From Nitrospirota bacterium (lineage in GTDB: Bacteria; Nitrospirota; Thermodesulfovibrionia; Thermodesulfovibrionales; JdFR-85), in NCBI GenBank assembly GCA_015492645.1, contig WGER01000056.1, forward strand, positions 1-49,692: 49,692 nt of DNA, given 5' to 3'. Every line of letters begins with the position of its first letter. The stretch's first letter is position 1. Positions 9,924 to 15,158 of this stretch are shown here, in pieces. The notes below the pieces were generated by a model, which saw nothing but the letters and a program-made list of their open reading frames with translations, searched no databases and was not told the DNA's origin. Both the position numbers and the translations under genes were made by a program.

Positions 9924-11276
9924 ATGGATGACACAAAGGTGATCCTTACAGAAAGGGAGATACCGAGGCAGTGGTATAACATTGCTGCGGACATGCCGAA
10001 GTTGCCTGACCCGCCACTGCATCCTGCAACCAAACAGCCAGTTGGGCCTGATGACCTGAAGGTTATCTTCCCGATGCCCTTAATAGAACAGGAGGTATCC
10101 ACCCAGAGATGGGTTGAGATACCAGAGGAGGTGTTACAGGTCTATACCCTCTGGCGTCCCACGCCCCTGCACAGGGCGAGGAGGCTGGAAGAGGCACTCA
10201 ACACCCCGGCCCGGATATACTACAAGTATGAAGGGGTGAGCCCTGCAGGCAGTCATAAACCAAATACATCCGTACCTCAGGCGTATTACAACAAGGTCTC
10301 TGGGATCAGGAGGATCGCCACCGAGACAGGTGCTGGCCAGTGGGGCTCGGCAATGGCGCTGGCAGGGAGCCTCTTCGGGGTGGAGGTGACGGTCTACATG
10401 GTGAAGGTGAGTTACAACCAGAAGCCCTACAGGAGGATAGCGATGGAGACATGGGGGGCCAGGGTGTATGCGAGCCCCTCGGAAAATACAGAGGCGGGAA
10501 GGAGGATCCTTGCAGATGACCCTGAAAACCCCGGTTCCTTGGGTATAGCCATCTCAGAGGCGGTAGAGGATGCCGCAACCCATGAGGATACAAACTATGC
10601 CCTCGGTTCTGTGCTCAACCATGTCCTGCTGCATCAGACCATCATCGGGCTTGAGGCGAAGAGGCAGTTTGAACTGATAGGAGAGTACCCGGATGTTATA
10701 TTCGGCTGTTGTGGTGGGGGAAGTAACCTCGCAGGCGTGAGTTTCCCCTTCCTTTACGACAAGATTCACGGCAGGCAGTTAAGGGTTGTTGCGGTAGAGC
10801 CTGCCTCCTGTCCAACCCTCACCAAGGGTGAGTTCAGGTATGACTTCGGAGACACAGCGGGTCTCACCCCGCTGATAAAGATGTACACCCTCGGGCATGA
10901 CTTTGTTCCACCCGGTATCCATGCCGGTGGTCTGAGGTATCATGGAGATGCCCCCCTCATATGCCAACTCTACAATGATGGATTGATAGAGGCAAAGGCA
11001 TACCATCAGAGGGCGGTGTTTGAAGCGGCAGTGACATTTGCGAGGGCCGAAGGGATCATCCCTGCTCCAGAGAGTGCCCATGCAGTGAGGGCAGCAATAG
11101 ATGAGGCCCTCCTCTGTAAGGAAGAAGGCAGAGAGAAGGTGATATTCTTTAACCTCAGTGGACACGGTTATCTTGATCTGCAGGCCTATGCAGATTACCT
11201 CGAGGGCAAACTTGAGGACTACGAATATCCAGAGGAGAAGATAAAGGAGGCACTTGCCAAATTGCCTGTGATTTGA
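9924..11276 (+). CDS. trpB2: TrpB2-type tryptophan synthase beta chain
   Basis: A 450-residue fold-type II PLP enzyme. It is longer than classical TrpB (about 400) and shows the TrpB2 pattern: a long N-terminal extension ([20 protein letters not shown]), then [14 protein letters not shown] with PLP lysine Lys112, [13 protein letters not shown], and the phosphate-binding glycine loop [12 protein letters not shown]. It joins indole and serine to make tryptophan, but TrpB2 proteins are often encoded without TrpA and may act alone, in indole salvage or as serine deaminases. No trpA or other trp gene is nearby. AGGAGG lies 5 bp upstream of ATG 9924. A B12 riboswitch follows 15 bp after the stop, so the downstream cob genes are separately controlled. 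Confidence 0.93.
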
Positions 11277-11291
11277 ATATACTGTTCAGAG

Positions 11292-11473
11292 GCCTTCAGG
11301 TGCCCTTGGGGGCTTAAAAGGGAATCCCGTGAGAATCGGGAGCGGACCCGCCGCTGTGACCCTGCATTCTGGAGGCCCTCTGCCATGATGCCACTTTCAG
11401 GTATGCCTGATGAGGGCGCCTGATGGGAAGGCGGCAGAGGGACGCAGGGGAGCCAGAAGACCTGCCTGAAGGC
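11292..11473 (+). promoter_or_regulatory. Cobalamin (AdoCbl) riboswitch aptamer
   Basis: The aptamer is closed by a 9-bp P1 stem: GCCTTCAGG (11292-11300) pairs with CCTGAAGGC (11465-11473). Inside lie the conserved core around 11330-11361 (GGGAATCCCGTGAGAATC, then GAGCGGACCCGCCGCTGTGA) and a B12-box-like AGCCAGAAGACCTGCC (11451-11466). A terminator follows at 11535-11570 and then the cobalamin assembly genes. By the known mechanism, bound adenosylcobalamin should favour termination. Confidence 0.93.
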
Positions 11474-11534
11474 GTGAGGACACCGCTCTTCGGGGCTTGG
11501 GAGTGGTGTTGCCCGGGATGAGAAGAGGGTTAAG

Positions 11535-11570
11535 TCCCCAGGGTTTTCAAAAGCCCTGGGGATTTTTTTT
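11535..11570 (+). terminator. Rho-independent terminator of the B12 riboswitch
   Basis: TCCCCAGGG (11535-11543) pairs with CCCTGGGGA (11554-11562) and is followed at once by eight T residues (11563-11570). It lies between the aptamer and the first cob-cluster gene (11581), so it serves as the riboswitch expression platform. Confidence 0.92.
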
Positions 11571-11580
11571 GGAGAGAGAG

Positions 11581-11841
11581 ATGGAGAGTTCTTACAGATT
11601 TTTCTTCAACAGTGGGTGTGAGTTTTTCCCCTGTCATCAGACAGATATAGAGGAGTTTAACTGTCTGTTCTGTTTCTGCCCTCTCTATTACCTCTCCTGT
11701 CCAGGAGAGGCGGTTTACATACCCTACAACGGCCATATGCTGAAGGACTGTTCCCCTTGTGACCTGCCTCACAGGCCAGAGAACTATGATGCGATAATCC
11801 AGATACTGATGGAGGTTAACAGGAGTGGACAGGGTGTCTGA
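11581..11841 (+). CDS. Cysteine-rich small-domain protein of cobalamin gene clusters
   Basis: An 86-residue protein beginning MESSYRFFFNSGCEFFPCH and containing NCLFCFCPLYYLSC and LKDCSPCDLPH. The dense Cys/His pattern (C13, C18, H19, then the CLFCFC cluster and C-S-P-C) matches the Cys-rich small domain found beside or fused to cobalamin biosynthesis proteins in archaea and anaerobic bacteria. It is probably a metal or Fe-S binding protein of unknown function. The start at ATG 11581 has GGAG 6 bp upstream. A longer frame beginning at 11497 would run through the riboswitch terminator and was rejected. It is the first gene after the riboswitch and overlaps cobU, so it belongs to the B12 operon. 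Confidence 0.82.
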   Translation: MESSYRFFFNSGCEFFPCHQTDIEEFNCLFCFCPLYYLSCPGEAVYIPYNGHMLKDCSPCDLPHRPENYDAIIQILMEVNRSGQGV

Positions 11842-12355
11842 ATTTGTCCTGATAACCGGAGGGGCAAGGAGTGGAAAGAGTGACCTGGCCCTCAAACTCG
11901 CCTCTGCGCAGGGCCGTCGTCTGGCCTTTGTCGCCACTGCTGAGGTGAAGGATGAAGAGATGGCAGAGAGGGTGGCGATCCACAGGGCAAAAAGGGGGCC
12001 TGGATGGCACACCTTTGAGGAGCCTCTCCATCTGGGGACCCTCCTTTCCGAGATCTACGAGAGGTACGACTCTATAGTGGTGGACTGTCTCACCCTGTGG
12101 CTCTCAAACCTCCTGTTGAGTCTTCAGGATCCAGAGGAAGTGAGAAGGGAGATACAAGAGACATTTCAGAGACTGAGGAGTCTCAGGGGAGCACGGATCT
12201 ACTTTGTGACGAATGAAGTGGGCATGGGGATTGTCCCTGAGCACCCACTGGCGAGGATGTTCAGGGACCTGGCAGGGTGGATGAATCAGCAGTTCGCCTC
12301 CCTCTGCAGGGAGGTCTACCTGGTTGTGGCAGGACAACCACTCAGAATCAAATAA
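11825..12355 (+). CDS. cobU: Adenosylcobinamide kinase / adenosylcobinamide-phosphate guanylyltransferase
   Basis: A 176-residue P-loop protein of normal CobU length. The P-loop is GGARSGKS, the guanylylated His lies in HRAKRGPGW, VDCLTLWLSNLL is the Walker B region, and the C-terminal NEVGMGIVPEHPLAR and FRDLAGWMNQ are family hallmarks. It phosphorylates adenosylcobinamide and transfers GMP to give AdoCbi-GDP for the nucleotide-loop assembly of B12. The start is GTG: 11825 has GGAGG 9 bp upstream, while GTG 11834 has AGGAG 8 bp upstream and is an equally good alternative. The gene overlaps the Cys-rich protein and is followed by cobT and cobS. Confidence 0.94.
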   Translation: MDRVSEFVLITGGARSGKSDLALKLASAQGRRLAFVATAEVKDEEMAERVAIHRAKRGPGWHTFEEPLHLGTLLSEIYERYDSIVVDCLTLWLSNLLLSLQDPEEVRREIQETFQRLRSLRGARIYFVTNEVGMGIVPEHPLARMFRDLAGWMNQQFASLCREVYLVVAGQPLRIK

Positions 12356-12367
12356 AGGAGGTATGGA

Positions 12368-13423
12368 ATGCTTGAAGAGACCCTCAACAGAATCATGCCT
12401 GTTGACAGTCGTCTCTATGAGGTTGCACAGAGGAGACTCGATAGCCTCACAAAGCCTCAGGGGAGTCTGGGCAGACTGGAGGAATTTGCGAGGCGGCTGG
12501 TAGCAATATACGATGAACAGATGCCTGAACTGCCCAAGAAGGTGGTCTTCACCTTTGCTGCTGACCATGGGGTGGCTGAGGAAGGCGTGTCTGCCTTTCC
12601 CCAGGAGGTGACCAGGCAGATGGTCTACAACTTTATCCGTGGTGGTGCCGGGATCAACGTCCTGGCAAGACATGCAGGCGCTGATGTGGTTGTGGTGGAT
12701 ATAGGAGTGAAGGCGGATTTTGACCCTGTCGAGGGACTTGAGATAAGAAAGGTACTCTACGGTACTGGGAACATAACAGAGGGACCTGCCATGAGCCGTC
12801 AGGAGGCGATCAGATGTATAGAGGTGGGTATTACCCTTGCCGGGGAGTATGTGAAGAGGGGATACAGGATGTTTGGTACAGGGGAGATGGGTATAGGCAA
12901 CACCACACCCTCCTCTGCCATATGTGCAGTGATCACCGGCAGGGATGTAGAGGAGGTGACGGGTCGGGGTACAGGTATAGATGACGAGAGGTTGAGACAT
13001 AAGATAGGGGTTATAAAGAAGGCCATAGAGAGGAATCAACCCGATCCGAGGGACCCGATAGATGTCCTTGCAAAGGTTGGAGGTCCTGAGATAGGGGGGA
13101 TTGCCGGTCTGTGTATTGGAGCATCTGCCCTGAGGGTCCCTGTAGTGGTTGACGGTTTCATCTCCACCGCAGGTGCCCTTATAGCATACGAACTTAATAA
13201 CAATGTAGCGGATTACCTCTTCTTTGCCCATCTGTCCCAGGAGCAGGGACACAGGGCGATGATAGAGCATATGAGGGCACGTCCTGTACTTGACCTGGAT
13301 CTCCGTCTGGGTGAGGGAACAGGAGCAGCCCTTGCCATGACACTGGTTGACGCCGGGCTGAAGATATACCTCGAGATGGCCACCTTTCAGGAGGCAGGTG
13401 TGTCAGACAGACAGGACAGATGA
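12368..13423 (+). CDS. cobT: Nicotinate-nucleotide--dimethylbenzimidazole phosphoribosyltransferase
   Basis: A 351-residue CobT of standard length. The N-terminal [11 protein letters not shown], the central [34 protein letters not shown] and the C-terminal [10 protein letters not shown] are family motifs; the catalytic glutamate is Glu316. It activates the lower-ligand base as its alpha-ribotide for joining to AdoCbi-GDP. AAAGGAGG precedes the start. It is followed by cobS with a 4-bp ATGA overlap. Since no cbi ring-building genes lie in the window, the operon serves the late or salvage half of B12 synthesis. The nature of the lower-ligand base cannot be inferred. Confidence 0.95.
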
Positions 13424-14166
13424 TAAGAGGCATCCTTATGGCCCTCAGTTTTCTGACTGTCCTGCCTATACCCTTGAAGGGAGGCCCTCAGGGTGTTGCC
13501 AGGACCACCCCGTTTTTCCCTCTTGCCGGATTACTCAAGGGTCTCATCCTCATCGGGCTGGCCTCTGTCGTTAGCCCCTTTGTGCCTGTAAAGGTGCTGG
13601 CAGGAGGTATTCTCCTGTTACATACCGGTCTTTCTGGTGGTCTGCATCTTGACGGCCTTGCAGACACAATTGATGCAGTTGCTGCAAGGACGGACAGACA
13701 GAGGAGGCTCAGAATAATGAAGGATCCATCAGTAGGACCCCTTGGTGCTACTGCCCTGTTTCTGGTACTGCTATTGAAGTTCCTCTGCATCGAGGAACTC
13801 CTGTCAGAGGGGCTCTGGGCGGAGTTACTCCTGTTCCCTGTAGCAGGCACAACCGCAATGGCCGGGGCATGCTACTTCGGCAGTCCTGCGAGAACAGAAG
13901 GGCTGGGCAGCCTCTTTATAAGGGAGACAGGAACAAGGGAGGTCCTGACGGCCCTGCTGTTGGCCACCTTCTCGGTAATTGCTATTGGCCTCCTGTTCAG
14001 CAGGACAACCAGGGTGATGATTGTAATGATAACCACTGTCGGTATTGCCCTTGTATTGACCCGATGCCTTCAGAGAATGTTTCACGGCCTTACTGGAGAC
14101 AACATAGGGGCGGTTGGTGAATCCTCCGAATTGGTCTTTCTTGTGCTTAGTTTGGTAAGATTTTAA
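13420..14166 (+). CDS. cobS: Adenosylcobinamide-GDP ribazoletransferase (cobalamin synthase)
   Basis: A 248-residue integral membrane protein. The start [18 protein letters not shown], the motif [12 protein letters not shown] with acidic residues that bind metal, and [13 protein letters not shown] are CobS signatures, followed by several hydrophobic helices and the C-terminal [14 protein letters not shown]. It joins AdoCbi-GDP to the alpha-ribotide at the inner membrane, the final assembly step. The start overlaps the cobT stop by 4 bp. folD follows 50 bp later and may be read through from the same riboswitch-controlled transcript. Confidence 0.94.
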
Positions 14167-14216: not shown

Positions 14217-15158
14217 ATGACGAAGATACTGGATGGAAGGTCTCTGGCTGAAAAGATCAAGAGTGATGTGAGAGGTGAGGTTGAAGAACTGAAGAGGTTC
14301 GGAATAGACGTCGGACTCGGGCTCTTACTGGTGGGAGACAACCCTGCATCAAAGCAATACTTCCTTGCGACTCTCAGGGCCTGCAGACAGACAGGCATCA
14401 GACCCTATGAGTTCAGACTTCCCTCGGATGCGTCCATAAATGAGATACTCAATGTTGTCCACAGGCTAAATGCAGACGAGAGGATAAACGGGATACTTGT
14501 GCTCTTCCCCCTACCCAGAAGAATAAACGCACGGAGGGTGGTGAACGAAATACTGCCCGAGAAGGATGTGGATGGCCTGGGTGCGATATCCATAGGCAGG
14601 CTCGCGGCCGATGAGTCCACCTTCCAGATATTCGATGAGGGCCTGTACAAGAATCTTAACAGGACAGGGTTTTTCCCTGCTGTATCAGGATTCCTTCCCT
14701 GTACACCCTTTGGTGTGATAAGACTCCTGGAACACTACCAGATCCCGATCAAGGGCAGACATGCGGTTGTTGTGGGTAAGAGCCTTGCTGTGGGCAAGCC
14801 CCTCAGCCTCATGCTTCTGGCAAAGGAGGCGACCGTGACAGTCTGTCATAAGGCAACAGGTGATCTTGGGTACTTCACCCGGCAGGCAGACATCCTCTGT
14901 TCTGCAACAGGTGTCTCCCATCTCATAAAGGCGGATATGGTGAAGGAAGGTGCGGTTGTGGTGGACATAGGGATAAATGTCCTCCAGGACGGACGGATAG
15001 TGGGGGATGTGGACTTTGAGAATGTGAAGGAGAAGGTCTCTGCCATAACACCTGTGCCAGGAGGGGTTGGTCCGGTTACCATAGCAATGTTGATGGAGAA
15101 TACAGTAAGGTCAGCCAGAAGGACTGAGGCGATGAAGAGCCCCCTCATGATGGGCTGA
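14217..15158 (+). CDS. FolD-like methylenetetrahydrofolate dehydrogenase, cyclohydrolase residues not conserved
   Basis: A 313-residue FolD-family protein. It keeps VGDNPAS-QY with Tyr48, EKDVDG with Asp119, the cofactor-binding VVVGKSLAVGKP, DIGINVL and ITPVPGGVGPVTIAML. Two catalytic positions differ. The lysine of the YxxxK motif (E. coli YVASK) is Thr52 in YFLAT, and the glutamine of GILVQLPLP is Leu96 in GILVLFPLP. Both are needed for the cyclohydrolase step in bifunctional enzymes. The usual Arg of the GRS cofactor loop is Lys. An insertion of about 20 residues follows GRLA. The yeast monofunctional Mtd1 dehydrogenase also has Thr at the lysine position (from memory). A dehydrogenase-only, possibly NAD-linked enzyme is the likely reading. 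GGGAGG precedes ATG 14217, 50 bp after cobS. Confidence 0.85.
   Translation: MTKILDGRSLAEKIKSDVRGEVEELKRFGIDVGLGLLLVGDNPASKQYFLATLRACRQTGIRPYEFRLPSDASINEILNVVHRLNADERINGILVLFPLPRRINARRVVNEILPEKDVDGLGAISIGRLAADESTFQIFDEGLYKNLNRTGFFPAVSGFLPCTPFGVIRLLEHYQIPIKGRHAVVVGKSLAVGKPLSLMLLAKEATVTVCHKATGDLGYFTRQADILCSATGVSHLIKADMVKEGAVVVDIGINVLQDGRIVGDVDFENVKEKVSAITPVPGGVGPVTIAMLMENTVRSARRTEAMKSPLMMG

Follow-up and report, generated by a model that had tools for sequence, protein, structure and literature searches.

A Nitrospirota FolD paralogue that has lost the cyclohydrolase lysine and glutamine across its clade and is probably a dehydrogenase only

The stretch of Nitrospirota DNA analysed here (the window, 49,692 nucleotides) encodes a FolD paralogue, FolD-P, in which the lysine and the glutamine of the cyclohydrolase site are both replaced. 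From the sequences we infer that cyclohydrolase activity has been lost and dehydrogenase activity retained; FolD-P is probably a dehydrogenase-only descendant of bifunctional FolD that serves the methylene-THF node. With an ordinary FolD fold, it would bind 5,10-methylene-THF through its retained Tyr48, Asp119 and PVPGGVGP loop, together with NAD(P), and hydride transfer would yield 5,10-methenyl-THF, or run in the reverse direction. Without the lysine and glutamine it would be unable to hydrolyse methenyl-THF to 10-formyl-THF, a step that would fall to the cell's canonical FolD. What FolD-P most likely contributes at the methylene-THF node is additional dehydrogenase capacity, or capacity under different regulation; this node may feed or drain corrinoid-dependent methyl-THF chemistry.

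The FolD-P reading frame starts with ATG and is preceded by the Shine-Dalgarno sequence GGGAGG (Table 1). Both the codons and an alignment to E. coli FolD (1b0a), from which the E. coli numbering was taken, bear out the initial annotation, which had placed Thr52 at the position of the catalytic lysine and Leu96 at that of the glutamine, with Tyr48 and Asp119 kept. The FolD (THF_DHG_CYH) family domain PF02882 is present at 219.9 bits (cut-off 27), a match as strong as the 220.4 bits scored by the genome's other, canonical FolD. The bifunctional features sought in FolD-P, the catalytic Lys of YxxxK and the Gln of VQLPLP, are both missing, and FolD-P reached the cut-off of none of the 25 NCBIfam FolD models listed, the closest being PRK14186 (306 of 333 bits). 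Proteins of this type are prone to being mislabelled as bifunctional FolD.

Table 1. Features of the window, and sites in the window genome and its relatives that are referred to in the text
Feature	Position	Strand	Evidence or remark
Cobalamin riboswitch aptamer (RF00174)	11281..11483	+	cmscan, 102 bits
Terminator-like hairpin and T run	11532..11565	+	15 pairs, 49 nt past the aptamer; possible expression platform; consensus scan, 3 sites found against 3.0 expected in shuffles
cobU	11825..12355	+	PRK05800, 193 bits (cut-off 161)
cobT	12368..13423	+	TIGR03160, 467 bits (cut-off 319)
cobS	13420..14166	+	TIGR00317, 138 bits (cut-off 110)
FolD-P, FolD paralogue without the cyclohydrolase Lys and Gln, 313 aa	14217..15158	+	Open reading frame, alignment, PF02882, AlphaFold2 model
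Tyr48 codon TAC (E. coli Y50)	14358..14360	+	Kept in 46/46 of clade
Thr52 codon ACT (E. coli K54)	14370..14372	+	Replaces catalytic Lys
Leu96 codon CTC (E. coli Q98)	14502..14504	+	Replaces Gln
Asp119 codon GAT (E. coli D121)	14571..14573	+	Kept in 46/46 of clade
Insert relative to canonical FolDs, residues 135-154	14619..14678	+	Predicted disordered (pLDDT < 50)
MtrH operon loci	L095, L096 (window genome, contigs C61, C62); L034-L037, L042, L043, L045, L097-L104, L108-L114		
Second MetF sites	G033:C21:53643, G022:C10:30242, G011:C35:4897, G043:C165:3602, G008:C15:68345, G042:C13:9030		

FolD-P orthologues with 58-80% identity occur in relatives, and the gene was found in 33 of 61 genomes (the window genome and 60 relatives), one of which has two copies. 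A phylum-wide draw of 148 genomes showed it in 32, of which 12 belong to a separate family (f19) and one to another family of the same class; a search of genome contigs with a profile of the clade alignment returned canonical FolDs only among the matches listed. The phylogeny, made by a quick method with SH-aLRT support and with yeast Mtd1 left out, placed all 46 FolD-P sequences, each from the same phylum, in a single group supported at SH-aLRT 100, whose stem branch is long (1.08) and which stands beside one canonical FolD type of the same order. FolD-P appears to have had a single origin.

Within this clade position 52 is Thr in 33 sequences and Ile in 13, and position 96 is Leu in 26 and Phe in 20; the Lys and Gln are both present in 83 of 83 canonical FolDs and in all 60 scored FolDs of named organisms (30 of them among the 83). 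Tyr48, Asp119 and PCTP are kept, PVPGGVGP is nearly fully kept, and the NAD(P)-site motifs are retained in nearly all members, so that the loss of cyclohydrolase residues and the retention of dehydrogenase motifs, first noticed in one protein, hold for the clade. Further changes co-vary around the active site (V49 to F/Y/L, F121 to L/Q, I191 to A/T and M287 to V). The clade evolves under purifying selection: dN/dS could be calculated for six pairs and lay at 0.02-0.11, whereas synonymous sites were saturated in the pair formed by the window genome and its sister genome. These values, and frames that are intact in nearly all members, rule out a pseudogene. Long open frames in two genomes (G073 and G133) look like 5' read-through, not fused domains.

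The AlphaFold2 model of FolD-P (mean pLDDT 90.7, pTM 0.88) has stretches below a pLDDT of 50 only in the insert and at the last three residues. Its best structural matches are bifunctional FolDs (3p2o: Z 41.2, rmsd 1.2, 282 residues), and yeast Mtd1 (1edz) matches with Z 31.6 and rmsd 2.1 over 276 residues. Because canonical FolDs were among the sequences aligned for the prediction, this agreement in fold is expected and is no test of function. Bifunctional FolDs (E. coli 1b0a, C. jejuni 3p2o, human MTHFD1/2) share the fold, the Tyr, the Asp and the dinucleotide and C-terminal motifs with FolD-P, at about 40-48% identity over the aligned model, but FolD-P differs from them in the insert and in the replacement of Lys and Gln in 46 of 46 sequences. 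In the dinucleotide site, position 188 changes from Arg to Lys and position 212 from Ser/Thr to Lys/Arg. MTHFD2 has Arg233, and MTHFD1 Ser197, in the register of position 212 (PMC9173628); the reading of Lys/Arg at this position as a mark of NAD use was dropped, because Arg is found at this position in E. coli FolD too.

The canonical FolD of the window genome (contig C24) carries the motifs YVTAK and VQLPLP and scores above the cut-off of an NCBIfam FolD model, and a canonical FolD coexists with FolD-P in nearly every FolD-P genome. Had the genome held no other cyclohydrolase, FolD-P would, as the initial annotation reasoned, have had to perform both reactions; this second folD could supply the activity. 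Of the further partners then proposed, FTHFS was found (56 of 61 genomes, the window genome included) and FchA was not (FTCD_C, 0 of 61 genomes). As FTCD_C is absent, canonical FolD is the sole recognised cyclohydrolase of the window genome. CdhC/AcsB is present in 57 of 61 genomes, again including the window genome. A tie between FolD-P and one of the two canonical FolD types was rejected (p = 0.44, 61 genomes). Separately, 20 of the 24 MtrH genomes carry the canonical FolD of the PRK14168 type, a co-occurrence with p = 2e-7 when phylogeny is ignored.

Replacements at the same two positions have been characterized in E. coli FolD, where selection for carolacton resistance yielded K54N, with undetectable cyclohydrolase and ~19% dehydrogenase activity, and Q98H, with ~8% dehydrogenase and ~1% cyclohydrolase activity (PMC5688156). 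FolD-P loses exactly these positions; the E. coli variants are laboratory single mutants, whereas FolD-P is a natural double change, fixed in a bacterial clade that nevertheless retains a bifunctional copy. The clade provides a clean test of separating the two FolD activities. In human MTHFD1, K56E raises the KM more than sixfold, with little change in the kinetic isotope ratio (PMC9173628). That FolD-P is still bifunctional, another residue or a water standing in for the Lys, is very improbable: most members carry a polar Thr at position 52, and methenyl-THF hydrolysis also occurs spontaneously (PMC5688156), but others have Ile there, position 96 is always Leu or Phe, the K54N variant lost its cyclohydrolase, and a canonical FolD is nearly always at hand.

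Lys56 with Gln100 of human DHCH has also been described as supporting hydride transfer (PMC3368264; PMC6443876). Given this role and the low dehydrogenase activity of E. coli Q98H, the double loss could have crippled the dehydrogenase as well, and the described role of Lys56 and Gln100 is why confidence in a dehydrogenase-only FolD-P is not higher. A catalytically weak or dead FolD-P might have been retained to bind folate, to act as a regulator, or to pair with canonical FolD in a heterodimer. This is quite unlikely given the NAD(P)-site motifs, the strong purifying selection and the example of Mtd1, a dehydrogenase that manages without both residues; the co-varying changes at V49, F121, I191 and M287 could compensate for the loss in the dehydrogenase reaction.

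Yeast Mtd1 (1EDZ/1EE9) is an NAD-dependent monofunctional methylene-THF dehydrogenase that shares its fold with FolD-P. Its sequence, used as a query, matched 1EDZ over all 320 residues, and its motifs are YATWT, VYFP and DVEGL; the Thr that the initial annotation had placed at the Lys position of Mtd1 is present in the deposited structure. Like FolD-P it keeps the Tyr, has Thr at the Lys position, has lost the Gln and has Leu after the Asp motif, and FolD-P fits the Mtd1 kind of residue pattern, in which Lys and Gln are absent and the substrate Tyr, the acidic Asp position and the dinucleotide fold are kept. It differs from FolD-P in carrying Tyr where the Gln would be and Glu for the Asp of DVDG (DVEG). 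The FolD-P clade profile scored 76.7 bits against 1edz and 342.7 against 3p2o; this far greater distance of Mtd1 suggests that the shared loss of Lys and Gln may be convergent. A monofunctional bacterial methylene-THF dehydrogenase is also attributed to Peptostreptococcus productus in a citation within PMC6443876; as a bacterial, dehydrogenase-only enzyme it would resemble FolD-P in the activity proposed here.

In the window, FolD-P begins 50 nt past cobS on the same strand, in the order riboswitch, cobU, cobT, cobS, FolD-P. A consensus scan of the window found no terminator-like hairpin between cobS and FolD-P; together with the hairpin past the aptamer, this makes B12-repressed co-transcription of cobUTS and FolD-P likely. 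The order is kept in the sister genome G001, the other genome of the genus, where a small extra ORF separates cobS from FolD-P. The position behind a cob operon with a cobalamin riboswitch was confirmed; as evidence of a corrinoid link it is weak by itself, because the aptamer and hairpin predict expression at low B12 and because FolD-P is often located away from B12 genes. A TrpB-like PLP enzyme (PRK12391, 760 bits) lies directly upstream of the riboswitch in the window (9924-11276) and in G001.

Elsewhere, FolD-P lies beside a cbi cluster on the opposite strand (G058), ~2 kb upstream of a riboswitch and Btu-like genes (G021), or near a formate dehydrogenase-like cluster and FTHFS (G035 and G044). 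In the distant genome G123 the order is riboswitches, cobT, FolD-P, riboswitch and a ThiC/BzaB-like gene; three cobalamin riboswitches surround these genes (L250), and the ThiC-like gene matches BzaB at 470 bits, under the model cut-off of 700. Proximity to B12 genes is a post hoc observation made without a formal control, and at many other loci the neighbours (pyrE, tgt, split gltB, ATP synthase, glpD-like genes) have no C1 link.

Such neighbourhoods raise the alternative of neofunctionalisation, in which FolD-P would act on another folate or pterin substrate or on a corrinoid lower-ligand precursor. The two active-site residues have been swapped for other types along with several co-varying positions, the stem branch is long, and FolD-P adjoins cobUTS in the window genome and its sister and cobT with the ThiC/BzaB-like gene in G123. 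Tyr48, Asp119, PCTP and PVPGGVGP, which position folate in known enzymes, are nevertheless retained in all or nearly all members, as is the dinucleotide loop, most FolD-P loci are distant from B12 genes, and we know of no lower-ligand step that requires a FolD-like enzyme. A new function is therefore unlikely, and the initial suggestion of another folate or pterin found no supporting evidence.

A corrinoid-dependent C1 context, also suggested initially, emerged from the relatives. In seven of them (G003, G004, G006, G009, G011, G022 and G033) FolD-P lies inside an operon, with genes for a membrane protein and an HdrD-like protein immediately downstream and DUF6951 (uncalled in G004) and RACo immediately upstream. 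These operons also hold an MtaA-like methyltransferase, a corrinoid protein, an RDH/QueG-like FeS protein, cysteate synthase and a ComDE fusion, with MtrH farther upstream (in G011 the contig stops before MtrH, which is on a separate contig). Operons of this kind, with MtrH, MtaA-like methyltransferases, corrinoid protein, RACo, HdrD-like protein, cysteate synthase and ComDE, are conserved in 24 of the 61 genomes and apparently combine coenzyme M biosynthesis with corrinoid methyl transfer. Cysteate synthase accompanies MtrH in all 24 (split into two matches in G004) and occurs without it in the incomplete genome G013.

The presence of FolD-P in a folate, corrinoid and coenzyme M operon points to a little-studied bacterial methyl-transfer route. 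It is conceivable, though somewhat unlikely, that FolD-P is a dedicated monofunctional methylene-THF dehydrogenase for a route in which MtrH, the corrinoid protein and the MtaA-like enzymes connect methyl-THF with a thiol, either coenzyme M or a related one; if so, a methanogen-like methyl-CoM node would be run with folate in bacteria, the coenzyme M being made by the same operon. A strict tie to the operon was rejected: MtrH is found in 12 of 33 FolD-P genomes and 12 of 28 others (Fisher p = 0.79, 61 genomes). In the window genome FolD-P is not inside the operon, which is split over contigs C62 and C61, but at the cob locus, and DUF6951 and the membrane protein gene abut (L095) where relatives have FolD-P between them. 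FolD-P, being independent of the operon, looks like a general folate enzyme that was drawn into corrinoid contexts several times and is not an obligate operon part. Since no correlation was seen, its role is one that we infer, and probably lies in B12-linked one-carbon metabolism. This same lack of co-occurrence counts against the dehydrogenase-only explanation, as do the many loci without C1 or B12 neighbours and the lack of a MetF match in the window genome.

No description of the gene combination of these operons was found in the literature searched. The type 1 mlp gene clusters of anaerobes (Kountz and Balskus) share MtaA-like (SCMT-like) proteins, a corrinoid protein and a corrinoid activase with the relatives' operons, and as presented in the main text of PMC10418091 they are without an H4folate methyltransferase. 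The relatives' operons hold, in addition, MtrH, the HdrD-like protein, cysteate synthase and ComDE, and FolD-P in seven genomes. That main text does not mention MtrH or cysteate synthase, and among the matches listed for folD in the paper, 'fold' is the ordinary word.

MetF was found in 54 of 61 genomes and had no match in the window genome, which is rated 100% complete. At the window genome's folD locus (L065) panB directly follows folD; in several relatives metV/metF sit near folD, between it and panB, and their absence may reflect a deletion or an assembly gap. In six genomes a second, high-scoring MetF (309-330 bits) lies ~7 kb or less from MtrH, and the same six carry a lower-scoring MetF elsewhere.
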